From Phycisphaerales bacterium (GTDB lineage Bacteria; Planctomycetota; Phycisphaerae; Phycisphaerales; SM1A02): a stretch of 54,421 nt of DNA. Where the stretch lies: positions 1 to 54,421 of the forward strand of contig JAKVBU010000025.1 in NCBI GenBank assembly GCA_022446885.1. Direction: 5' to 3'. The notes beneath the pieces are model-generated. The model was not told the origin of the DNA. It did no database searches and saw only the letters and a program-made list of their open reading frames with translations. The translations under genes were made by a program, and so were the position numbers. How positions within the stretch are numbered: position 1 is the stretch's first letter; every line of letters begins with the position of its first letter. This document shows, in pieces, positions 4,796 to 22,604 of the stretch.

Positions 4796-4951
4796 GGTTC
4801 TGAGCGAGCAAGTGTGCCTCACGATCTCAGCAAGGCACTGGCAAAACGGCATTTTGGCCCAGATCGCCAGATGATGTTCGGCATCTGTCAGGCTTGTTTG
4901 TCGGTTCGCAGCGGGGGATTCGGCCAGTTTTTGGGGATTTGTGTCGAGAAG

Positions 4952-4976
4952 TGTTGCGATGTGGGGGATTGTGGGA
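4952..4976 (+). promoter_or_regulatory. Candidate MraZ operator (TGGGN boxes)
   Basis: TGGGG at 4962-4966 and TGGGA at 4972-4976 are separated by exactly 5 nt, the TGGGN-N5-TGGGN arrangement bound by E. coli MraZ. A degenerate first box (TGTTG) occurs at 4952-4956 in the same register. More GGGGATT copies lie at 4914-4920 and 4933-4939. The site is about 113 nt before mraZ, consistent with autoregulation. The 294-bp gap 4796-5089 holds no gene that I can support. Confidence 0.55.
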
Positions 4977-5089
4977 TAGTGTCCTCCCGACGTGGTGGCG
5001 ACTGAGCCAGCACGCCCGTGAGGGCAGTGACGAGGTGGGCTCGTCGCTGCAGAGGTCGAAGGGTTTGCGAACTACCAAGGAACCAGTGC

Positions 5090-5575
5090 GTGCTCTTTAC
5101 AGGCGAGTACGAACACACCGTGGATGCCAAGGGGCGACTGGCGATTCCCTCCGAGATTCGCAGTCGGCTGGATCCTGCCGTGCATGGGCGGGGTCTGTAT
5201 CTGGCACCGGGGCCTTCGGACGCACTGTGGATCTGGCCTGCGAAGACCTTCGAGCAGATGGCGGCAGCCAGCGAAGCCTCACTGTTGCCCGACGAGGACA
5301 TGCTGGAGTTCGAGGAACTCCTGTACTCGCAATCAACGCACGTCGATCTCGATTCGGCCGGACGTATTCGAGTCCCGGAACGGCTGCTCAATCTGGCACA
5401 ACTCGAGTCAAACGTGGTCCTGCTGGGTGTGAAGGACCATCTGGAGCTGCGCGACCCACAGCGATGGGGCAGGCAGCGCGACGAACGGCTGGCCAAGCAG
5501 GCCGACATCATGATTCGAGCCAGGCGAGCCATGCGACGTGGCCCGGGCGGCATGTCGGAGACGGACACCAAATGA
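5090..5575 (+). CDS. mraZ: Transcriptional regulator MraZ
   Basis: MraZ is a DNA-binding repressor/regulator built from two AbrB-like half-repeats, usually heading the division and cell wall cluster. Both halves are visible: GEYEHTVDAKGRLAIPSEIR near the start and THVDLDSAGRIRVPERLL in the middle. The frame is open to 5018, but the GTG at 5090 gives the family N-terminus and is preceded by AAGGA 7 nt away. The product is 161 aa, with an Arg-rich tail. Oddly, rsmH, ftsL and ftsI do not follow; a hairpin array and convergent csrA do. Confidence 0.93.
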   Translation: MLFTGEYEHTVDAKGRLAIPSEIRSRLDPAVHGRGLYLAPGPSDALWIWPAKTFEQMAAASEASLLPDEDMLEFEELLYSQSTHVDLDSAGRIRVPERLLNLAQLESNVVLLGVKDHLELRDPQRWGRQRDERLAKQADIMIRARRAMRRGPGGMSETDTK

Positions 5576-5862
5576 ACACGATGACCCCCAGCAGCCGGCC
5601 ATGGACGGCCTGTACGACTGGACCTTCACGTACGCATTGCGCCTGGGACCGTGGGCACGGATGCCCCTACGTCCCTGACACAGAGGCATGGAGGCCTTGA
5701 ACAGGGCGCAATGACACGAGCCACGGATGGCTCGTAGGCGGGCTTGAGCCCGCTGCGAATCATGGACGATTCGCACACATTCCTCACGAGTCTCGCGCTC
5801 TAGCGCCGAGACTCCCCTTCCCGGTTCGTGACGCGTCCCACCACGCGTCACGAACTGTTTTT
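5576..5862 (+). ncRNA. Candidate CsrA-titrating RNA (CsrB/RsmZ-like hairpin array)
   Basis: Directly after mraZ the plus strand forms successive hairpins with GGA in the loops. They are: GGCC stem, loop ATGGAC (5597-5610); GTACG/CGTAC stem enclosing CTGGAC (5612-5633); GGGCA/TGCCC with CGGA loop (5653-5666), extended by GT/AC and GGGAC/GTCCC (5645-5675); AGGC/GCCT with loop ATGGAG (5684-5697); ACGAGCCA/TGGCTCGT with CGGA loop (5716-5735); TGCGAATC/GATTCGCA with loop ATGGAC (5754-5775). Hairpins without GGA lie at 5738-5753 and 5788-5814, and the terminator ends it. A-N-GGA in a loop is the known CsrA target, and csrA is adjacent. The 5' end is unknown: it may have its own promoter or be processed from the mraZ mRNA, and a TGTC/GACA hairpin with a GGA loop already lies at 5553-5567. 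The minus strand shows no GGA loops. Confidence 0.65.
5824..5862 (+). terminator. Intrinsic terminator of the mraZ/hairpin-RNA transcript
   Basis: GTTCGTGACGCGT (5824-5836) pairs perfectly with ACGCGTCACGAAC (5843-5855) across a 6-nt loop, followed by TGTTTTT. The T tract is only on the plus side, so it terminates plus-strand transcription before csrA. Confidence 0.9.
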
Positions 5863-5893
5863 GGACCCTGCTCTTTGCCGGTCGCCAGGCTGC

Positions 5894-6109
5894 TCAGCCT
5901 GAGGCCGGTCGGATCTTGCCTGCAATCGATGGCTTCTCAGCGTTGATCTGATCTGCCACCTCGCGGCGATGCACTTCCACGTCACGTGGAAAGTTCAGGG
6001 CCAAACGAACTCGGTCGCCCTTGACTGATGCAATCCGCACAATACCGATGGGGTTTGAAGGATCGCCGATGACGACCTCTTCACCTTCCCGTCTCGTAAT
6101 CACCAGCAT
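5894..6109 (-). CDS. csrA: Carbon storage regulator CsrA
   Basis: CsrA is a small dimeric RNA-binding protein that represses or stabilises mRNAs by binding GGA in 5' leaders. The 71-residue product starts MLVITRREGEEVVIG and continues through VRIASVKGDRVRLALNFPRD and VEVHRREV, the family landmarks, including the R-x-x-V-x-V-H-R-x-E segment of the RNA-binding surface; the C-terminus is slightly longer than usual. It has a strong Shine-Dalgarno, AGGAGG, 8 nt before the ATG (6123-6118), which itself contains GGA and could allow autoregulation. It converges on the hairpin-array RNA. No fliW is in the window. Confidence 0.95.
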   Translation of the reverse strand: MLVITRREGEEVVIGDPSNPIGIVRIASVKGDRVRLALNFPRDVEVHRREVADQINAEKPSIAGKIRPASG

Positions 6110-6155
6110 GCCTCGGCCCTCCTGCCGCGTAACTGCCGTCCTGACAATGCACCAC

Positions 6156-6167
6156 CGTCACGTGACG
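6156..6167. promoter_or_regulatory. 12-bp perfect palindrome upstream of csrA
   Basis: CGTCACGTGACG is a perfect palindrome 47 nt before the csrA start, in the region between csrA and the nfu-like gene. It could be an operator for a dimeric regulator; nothing else supports that. Confidence 0.25.
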
Positions 6168-6254
6168 ACAGCGCCCACCAATGTGTGAGCCTACACCAGC
6201 CAGTGGCAGGATCCAAGTGGTCCATCCCCGAGAAGCGGGCACAATTAGGCCCGA

Positions 6255-6503
6255 TCAGGCGTCTTCAATGGCCTCGACAGCGGTGACGCCTGGCACCTTG
6301 CCCACGAGATTGGCCGCCAAGCCGTCTCTGAGGGTCATATGGCTGCTCGGGCACCCGATACAGGCTCCCAGCAGTCGCACCTGTACGACGCCCTGATCAG
6401 TGATGCCCACCAACTCAACATCGCCGCCATCTGCCTTGATCGAGGGGCGGATGGCGTCCAACACGGCCTCAACCGTGGCTTGATCACAAGGCGTCTCAGT
6501 CAT
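6255..6503 (-). CDS. NifU-like C-terminal (Nfu) domain protein
   Basis: This 82-residue protein consists of one Nfu domain, which carries and donates Fe-S clusters. The start of the domain (VEAVLDAIRPSIKADGGDVEL) and the cluster-binding C-x-x-C in LLGACIGCPSS (C48, C51) are intact. The frame continues upstream, but the ATG at 6503, with TACCCT 7 nt before it, gives the usual length for stand-alone Nfu proteins and is chosen. It is a single gene between csrA and a divergent lipoprotein gene. Partner enzymes cannot be inferred here, although a cysteine desulfurase homologue is 16 kb away. Confidence 0.88.
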   Translation of the reverse strand: MTETPCDQATVEAVLDAIRPSIKADGGDVELVGITDQGVVQVRLLGACIGCPSSHMTLRDGLAANLVGKVPGVTAVEAIEDA

Positions 6504-22017: not shown

Positions 22018-22604
22018 TCAGGGGCGTGGGCGTTGTCGATCATCTCGCAGAGCAGATGCAGCATCAGGTGGTGGCCTTCTTGGATCGTGGCCGAGTCTTC
22101 AAATGGAACGATCAAGGATCGATCGCATTGCCCGGCAGCATCACCTCCACTTCGGCCCAGCAGGCCGATGACCATGATGCCCATCGATTGAGCGGTTTCG
22201 ATCGCCCGCAGGATGTTGGGGCTGTTGCCGGAGGTGGAGAACACAATCAGGGCGTCGCCGCTTCGGCCAAGTCCCTCAATCGCTCGGCTGAAGACCGTCT
22301 CATAGCCGAAGTCATTTGCGATGCACGTCAGCGCCGAAGGATCGGCGTGCAGACAGGCTGCCGCCAGTGGGGGACGGGTGGTGCGGTAGCGCCCCAGTAG
22401 TTCCTCGGCCAGATGCATCGCGTGCGTCGCCGACCCGCCATTGCCGCAGGTCCAGATCGTGCCACCGCCGGCCAGCACGTCAAGCAGGGCGGCGCCCATG
22501 GTGGCCAGGTCACCCAATGAGTCACTCAGCCAATTCACGACTTCACCGGCGGCGTCCAACTGACGTCGCATGGCCTCGATCGATGCCGATGCGTCGATGC
22601 TCAT
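22014..22604 (-). CDS. gmhA: Phosphoheptose isomerase-like SIS protein
   Basis: GmhA converts sedoheptulose 7-phosphate to heptose 7-phosphate for LPS core or S-layer sugars. The 196-residue protein has a single SIS domain: WTCGNGGSATHAMHLAEELLGRY, VFSTSGNSPNILRAI, and the C-terminal QEGHHLMLHLLCEMI carrying the metal-binding Gln/His. Length is right. It is coupled at both ends by ATGA overlaps to the cysteine desulfurase and the MauE-thioredoxin gene, a pairing with no obvious pathway logic. A DiaA-type SIS protein is the main alternative. Confidence 0.85.
   Translation of the reverse strand: MSIDASASIEAMRRQLDAAGEVVNWLSDSLGDLATMGAALLDVLAGGGTIWTCGNGGSATHAMHLAEELLGRYRTTRPPLAAACLHADPSALTCIANDFGYETVFSRAIEGLGRSGDALIVFSTSGNSPNILRAIETAQSMGIMVIGLLGRSGGDAAGQCDRSLIVPFEDSATIQEGHHLMLHLLCEMIDNAHAPE

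Follow-up and report, generated by a model that had tools for sequence, protein, structure and literature searches.

A predicted CsrA-sequestering RNA downstream of mraZ in uncultured Phycisphaerales

Most of what is known of RNAs that antagonise CsrA comes from the gamma-proteobacteria; elsewhere the role is attributed to FliW. FliW and BarA-UvrY are strongly anti-correlated, the Planctomycetes are among the groups that may use FliW, and further study of inhibitory RNAs in FliW-encoding species has been called for (PMC4682653). In a 54,421-nt stretch of Phycisphaerales DNA (the window), a sequence-only reading had picked out positions 5576–5862, adjoining a csrA gene, as a candidate CsrA-sequestering RNA. 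Like CsrB and CsrC or RsmX, RsmY and RsmZ of the gamma-proteobacteria, this element combines an intrinsic terminator with numerous GGA-bearing hairpin loops; unlike them, it follows mraZ and has no Rfam match at relaxed thresholds. The Rfam models for these five RNAs gave no match in the window at gathering scores or in 5560–5880 at E ≤ 10, and 12 related loci gave none at E ≤ 1. Hits to Scr3202, Glutamine-II, TwoAYGGAY, sbcD, TB10Cs1H3 and tfoR were all below the gathering score, and assignment to a known Rfam family was rejected. The name of the TwoAYGGAY RNA (RF01731) suggests AYGGAY-type loops, as in the planctomycete RNA, but the hit was a weak one of 20 nt (E 9.4, 16.1 bits compared to a gathering score of 43) and is not a match. 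A search of titles and abstract openings, which took in few subscription journals and gave slight coverage of small RNAs in Phycisphaera, found no earlier description of such an RNA.

The plus strand of 5576–5862 folds with an energy of −135.2 kcal/mol; 200 dinucleotide-shuffled sequences averaged −101.9 kcal/mol (sd 5.1; z = −6.47), and not one of them folded as well. All seven GGA triplets reported on this strand were located (5603, 5620, 5646, 5659, 5690, 5725 and 5764), and the repeated loops were as described, with ATGGAC at 5601 and 5762, CGGA inside an A-U pair at 5658 and 5724, and ATGGAG at 5688. Six of the triplets had been placed in hairpin loops; the minimum-energy fold has five unpaired in such loops (5603, 5659, 5690, 5725 and 5764), because those at 5620 and 5646 are wholly or partly paired. 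The intrinsic terminator with its T tract was recovered as well (Table 1). The minus strand had been said to lack GGA loops, which holds for the A-N-GGA form, but three GGA hairpins of other loop types are present there (stem of at least 3 pairs; loops TGGTGGGA, AGGGGAG and GAGGA), the first being the reverse of the terminator.

The densest 250-nt cluster of GGA hairpins on either strand of the window lies in this element, with seven compared to at most five on the other strand. A search of both strands over 273,369 bases of this genome, about a tenth of it, found at most two A-N-GGA stem-loops (stem of at least 4 pairs) in any 300 nt, compared to five here. BLAST of the RNA against its own genome returned only itself and no second copy. 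Two more A-N-GGA stem-loops, 223 nt apart, occur on the plus strand of the window at 22116 and 22339; these are possibly CsrA sites in a target mRNA.

Table 1. Features at the mraZ–csrA2 locus of the window.
Feature	Position	Strand	Remarks
MraZ-box-like repeats, five 10-bp units each starting TG	4932..4981	+	three read TGGG (4932, 4962, 4972)
mraZ, MraZ transcription regulator, 161 aa, GTG start	5090..5575	+	PF02381, E 1.6e-24
Predicted CsrA-sequestering RNA	5576..5862	+	putative 3′ part of mraZ transcript or processed from it
CsrA-site hairpin 1, loop AUGGAC (predicted)	5597..5610	+	conserved in the genus's two other genomes (alignment A3, by eye)
CsrA-site hairpin 2, loop A-CGGA-U (predicted)	5653..5666	+	alignment A3, by eye
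CsrA-site hairpin 3, loop AUGGAG (predicted)	5683..5698	+	alignment A3, by eye
CsrA-site hairpin 4, loop A-CGGA-U, 8-bp stem (predicted)	5716..5735	+	alignment A3, by eye
CsrA-site hairpin 5, loop AUGGAC, 8-bp stem (predicted)	5754..5775	+	alignment A3, by eye
Hairpin without GGA, ahead of terminator	5788..5814	+	fold
C-rich linker CCCCUUCCCGG ahead of terminator	5814..5824	+	identical in 3 genomes of alignment A3
Intrinsic terminator, sequence unusually conserved across genera	5822..5862	+	15 pairs, 6-nt loop, TTTTT
csrA2, divergent CsrA paralogue, convergent with RNA	5894..6109	-	PF02599, E 6.3e-15

The arms of the hairpin lacking GGA are complementary, yet of different sequence, in the two other genomes of the genus (by eye). 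The core of the linker, CUUCCCGG, is identical in the six genomes of alignment A1 and the five of alignment A2, and 17 genomes from four other genera match the terminator block at 83–98% identity across some 50 nt. Sequence conservation of the linker and terminator stem (5814–5857) goes far beyond a terminator's needs. At four loci of family f5 (L136, L142, L145 and L137; f1 denotes the window's own family and f2–f6 other families of the order, the labels being arbitrary), a CU-rich stretch, UCUCCUCCUC, stands before the terminator in place of the linker. Either element could be an anti-Shine-Dalgarno-like seed or a processing site.

A BLASTN search of 200 relatives with the RNA as query matched 19 other genomes, 17 through the terminator block only; upstream of that block the hairpins differ in sequence and keep their form. 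We then counted A-N-GGA stem-loops (stem of at least 5 pairs) around csrA2 in 80 fetched regions together with the BLASTN loci; f1 contributed 66 of these loci and the order's remaining families 32. Over 500 nt 3′ of csrA2, the f1 loci contained 148 on the RNA strand (3.3 in shuffles) and four on the csrA strand (2.5 in shuffles), while the 500 nt 5′ of csrA2 had 21 on the csrA strand (3.9 in shuffles). The other families of the order showed no excess 3′ of csrA2 (0 compared to 1.6 in shuffles), and mraZ, looked for in their 32 csrA2 loci, was found in none.

The same count was made around mraZ. Of 112 f1 genomes with an mraZ match, 64 supplied the 65 f1 loci of this sample, which also took in 17 distinct loci of f2–f6 (L160 repeats L137). 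Within 500 nt 3′ of mraZ, 64 f1 loci contained 348 A-N-GGA motifs, 179 of them with a stem of at least 5 pairs compared to 3.8 in shuffles; the opposite strand had three stem-loops (2.3 in shuffles). The comparison with relatives proposed in the sequence-only reading came out in its favour, with GGA loops conserved on varying stems 3′ of mraZ and a strong bias to one strand (179 compared to 3). There was also a modest excess in the f1 mraZ coding region (20 compared to 4.5 in shuffles), and nine stem-loops upstream of mraZ (6.8 in shuffles). At least two sites (stem of at least 4 pairs) were present within 700 nt 3′ of mraZ at 59 of 65 f1 loci, representing 33 of 37 labelled genera; the loci with fewer are L068, L092, L094, L095, L099 and L151, the last of which ends 129 nt after mraZ. 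Of the 17 f2–f6 loci, 11 had at least two sites and six had fewer. Between the mraZ stop and the first site the median distance is 77 nt (64 loci). A simple search placed a terminator 3′ of mraZ at 48 of 65 f1 loci, although at L007 at least it is not the conserved one.

Outside the class, sites (stem of at least 5 pairs) were nearly absent, with five on the plus strand in 29 loci, two in another 20 and none on the minus strand, and a spread of the RNA beyond the class was largely rejected. Two loci from another class (L268 and L280, family f48) have an mraZ with TGGG-N6-TGGG repeats, no rsmH in the flank examined, and a GGA-rich stretch after mraZ with a strong terminator (A-N-GGA on plus and minus strands: 11 and 0 in L280, 5 and 1 in L268). 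It is possible that these are a second instance of the RNA, outside the class. In L315 and L316, also f48, mraZ is followed by rsmH at a distance of about 650 nt.

In the window, the RNA stretch begins directly after mraZ, without a gap, and ends before csrA. That it lies on the strand opposite csrA and converges on it, as originally described, is true there, where mraZ and csrA were both confirmed with Pfam. That it is encoded next to csrA is correct for the window and most family loci, but this adjacency is inconstant: it was seen only in f1 and does not extend to all f1 loci, and the constant partner is the 3′ end of mraZ. When mraZ was mapped at the family loci, the hairpin cluster was found directly 3′ of it, on the mraZ strand. 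Usually csrA2 is convergent with the RNA, but mraZ lies upstream of csrA2 on the same strand in L090, L091, L101, L112, L114 and L125 (genera g26, g39, g2, g42, g16 and g6), csrA2 comes first with mraZ downstream in L059 and L061 (g41), and in genomes G085 and G036 the RNA follows mraZ with csrA2 on another contig. Among the best 80 of at least 264 confirmed csrA2 stretches, at least two hairpins were present in 41 of 45 loci with mraZ (the exceptions being L202, L206, L215 and L224), in none of the 29 loci with a full flank and no mraZ, and in three of six with a cut flank. These 80 loci are from metagenome assemblies named mostly as Phycisphaerales, Phycisphaerae, Phycisphaeraceae or Planctomycetota; they share some genomes with the other locus set, and the two sets are not independent.

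The RNA thus goes with the 3′ end of mraZ, not with csrA2. An independent gene of the CsrB type beside csrA was rejected, since the hairpins are linked to mraZ across loci, and the RNA is probably the 3′ part of the mraZ transcript. Of the identity originally proposed, a CsrA-sequestering RNA is supported by the conserved stems, the GGA loops and the strand bias; the free-standing gene beside csrA is not.

The 179 hairpins share a loop consensus of C-A-N-GGA-(U/C)-G on stems that vary. The search demanded the A, the GGA and a stem and left the flanking positions free; C nevertheless precedes the A in 170 of 179, U or C follows GGA in 157, and G comes next in 152. At N, C is found in 63, A in 53, U in 37 and G in 26. 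The hairpins comprise 169 different 20-mers and 99 different 5-nt arms. The consensus resembles the CsrA SELEX site RUACARGGAUGU, which was found mostly in hexaloops closed by AC and GU (PMC7652899). The SELEX hairpins mostly had at most four contiguous pairs, and stems of very high stability were proposed to be a disadvantage (PMC7652899); many stems in the family RNA are longer, and binding could therefore be weaker.

Alignments within genera g35, g36 and g1 showed conserved GGA loops on changing stems. Both sides had changed in 19 of 102 predicted pairs in g35 and 25 of 108 in g36, GGA stems and others pooled, while the RNAalifold covariation term for the whole alignments was slightly unfavourable (+1.09 and +2.32). 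Several features of a CsrA-sequestering small RNA are found together: several looped A-N-GGA motifs, compensatory stems with invariant loops, an intrinsic terminator, and csrA in the genome. It is very likely that this is a conserved RNA with CsrA-site hairpins.

The MraZ boxes of E. coli are TGGG (TGGGN) repeats bound by MraZ. TGGG-N6-TGGG occurs upstream of mraZ at 54 of 64 f1 loci, compared to about one expected from mononucleotide shuffles, and at 11 of 17 f2–f6 loci (none of three in f4); the spacing of TGGG in this region peaks at 10, 20 and 30. MraZ-box-like repeats, as expected for an MraZ-controlled unit, are therefore present upstream of mraZ. The boxes of the Mollicutes differ, being AAAGTG[T/G] repeats; in E. 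coli, MraZ binds its boxes and represses its own expression (PMC8475190). A sigma-70-like promoter was sought in 4850–6300 and none was recognised.

The usual gene after mraZ is rsmH. Two query proteins found no rsmH downstream of mraZ in the flank examined at any of the 65 f1 or 17 f2–f6 loci, whereas it was present in 26 of 29 loci of other orders and 27 of 29 of other classes (a few offsets were misplaced). In some other orders of the class, hairpins occur between mraZ and rsmH. From this gap location elsewhere and the lack of rsmH after mraZ in the order, we infer that the RNA originated between mraZ and rsmH and persisted as mraZ moved out of the division cluster.

A csrA gene was found in 198 of 201 genomes including the window's own, usually in two copies, and most relatives have a second csrA apart from one with a stronger PF02599 match; fliW was found in 172 of 201. 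In the window's genome, csrA1 lies directly 3′ of fliW, and csrA2 is the gene in the window. The VHR segment of csrA2 aligns with the solved CsrA structure 1y00, relative to which the window's csrA2 has a four-residue insertion. Eight genomes with an examined locus had no FliW match and a single csrA, of the csrA2 type (G003, G029, G043, G045, G048, G049, G073 and G076; G048 is 65% and G073 70% complete). Seven of these have at least two sites, and G045 has only one. This retention of sites points to CsrA2 as the partner of the RNA, which is also the likeliest candidate because csrA2 adjoins the RNA in most family loci examined. In f5, the nine genomes examined lack a strong CsrA2 match (best E 1.5e-8), yet sites are present in some loci; the partner could therefore be CsrA1. 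Overall, CsrA2 is a reasonable choice as the putative partner.

We consider it quite probable that the element is a CsrA-sequestering RNA co-transcribed with mraZ, with CsrA2 as its likeliest partner and possibly under MraZ control. The mraZ transcription unit would end in a non-coding RNA of roughly 230–500 nt with an intrinsic terminator and several probable high-affinity CsrA sites, which are A-N-GGA hexaloops with stems that vary. This RNA would be transcribed with mraZ, and perhaps processed from the mraZ transcript. It would bind several CsrA dimers, most likely of the paralogue CsrA2, and thereby lower free CsrA; on sequence evidence, sequestration is the best explanation for the sites. 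MraZ-box-like repeats lie ahead of mraZ, so autorepression by MraZ probably governs how much of the RNA is made; such control is a reasonable proposal.

The most serious alternative, though an unlikely one, is that the element acts only in cis: CsrA would bind the tail of the mraZ mRNA and set the stability of that message, leaving free CsrA unchanged. The position of the RNA directly after mraZ, with the first site so close to the stop codon, would fit such a 3′ UTR, as would the failure to recognise a separate promoter. However, each RNA has several SELEX-like sites, and the RNA lies beside csrA2 in many genera. Several CsrA sites per RNA is a number typical of sponges, not of operators.

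Less probable still is that CsrA is not involved, and that the stem-loops exist for a different RNA-binding partner, or reflect palindromic DNA or a coding region that has decayed. Such a reading could draw on a small ORF that, in f5 and in certain other orders, takes up some of the sequence following mraZ, but the strand bias is strong, the loop resembles the CsrA consensus (PMC7652899), and no ORF is conserved across f1 genera. A protein-coding region after mraZ was rejected on the last ground (13 similar pairs among 60 ORFs). The small ORF, of about 75–97 aa, lies 0–330 nt 3′ of mraZ in L136, L137, L142 and L145 (f5) and in L157 from another order; its end is similar between loci (RLGG-F or RYGDSF), and in some loci it overlaps or nears A-N-GGA hairpins. 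It is possibly an older CsrA-regulated gene.

A cis element regulating csrA2, such as an antisense RNA or a buffer against convergent transcription, would suit the convergence seen in the window and most family loci, but was rejected as very improbable because the position of the RNA relative to csrA2 varies: the window's RNA ends short of csrA, the two are co-directional at the six loci and in reversed order at the two g41 loci given above, G085 and G036 have the RNA with no csrA2 close by, and in other families the mraZ loci seem to lack a nearby csrA2 just as the 32 csrA2 loci lack mraZ.

A CsrA-capturing RNA is predicted in uncultured planctomycetes, far outside the gamma-proteobacteria, and many genomes of one family appear to combine FliW, a candidate CsrA-sequestering RNA and two csrA genes. 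This bears on the question, left open in PMC4682653, of whether FliW-encoding species also use inhibitory RNAs. It would also provide a concrete candidate target for MraZ, a widely conserved regulator of long elusive function (PMC8475190), and would link the control of cell division with post-transcriptional regulation. More tentatively, and with the balance tipping slightly against it, MraZ may have been freed from the division operon in Phycisphaerales and acquired a CsrA sponge as its new main output, giving two insulated circuits in which CsrA1 is checked by FliW and CsrA2 by an MraZ-controlled RNA; sequestration of CsrA by an RNA would then have arisen beyond the gamma-proteobacteria and without BarA-UvrY.

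Compared with the CsrB and Rsm RNAs, the predicted RNA is set apart by a host that has FliW, whose occurrence is anti-correlated with BarA-UvrY (PMC4682653). In FliW–CsrA, the other known form of CsrA antagonism, the antagonist is a protein, whereas here it would be an RNA. UpsM of Rhodobacter is likewise a small RNA in one transcription unit with mraZ, but it lies in the 5′ leader upstream of mraZ, and CsrA is unmentioned in the examined text of its description (PMC5089854); here the RNA is 3′ of mraZ. RsmU of Xanthomonas is an RsmA-binding RNA with GGA motifs that is processed from the 3′ UTR of a coding mRNA, and thus shares the 3′ position of the planctomycete RNA (PMC7694677). The parent gene of RsmU, however, is comEA-like, and RsmU has four GGA motifs and is described for Xanthomonas only (PMC7694677), while the RNA predicted here follows mraZ, in a different phylum.
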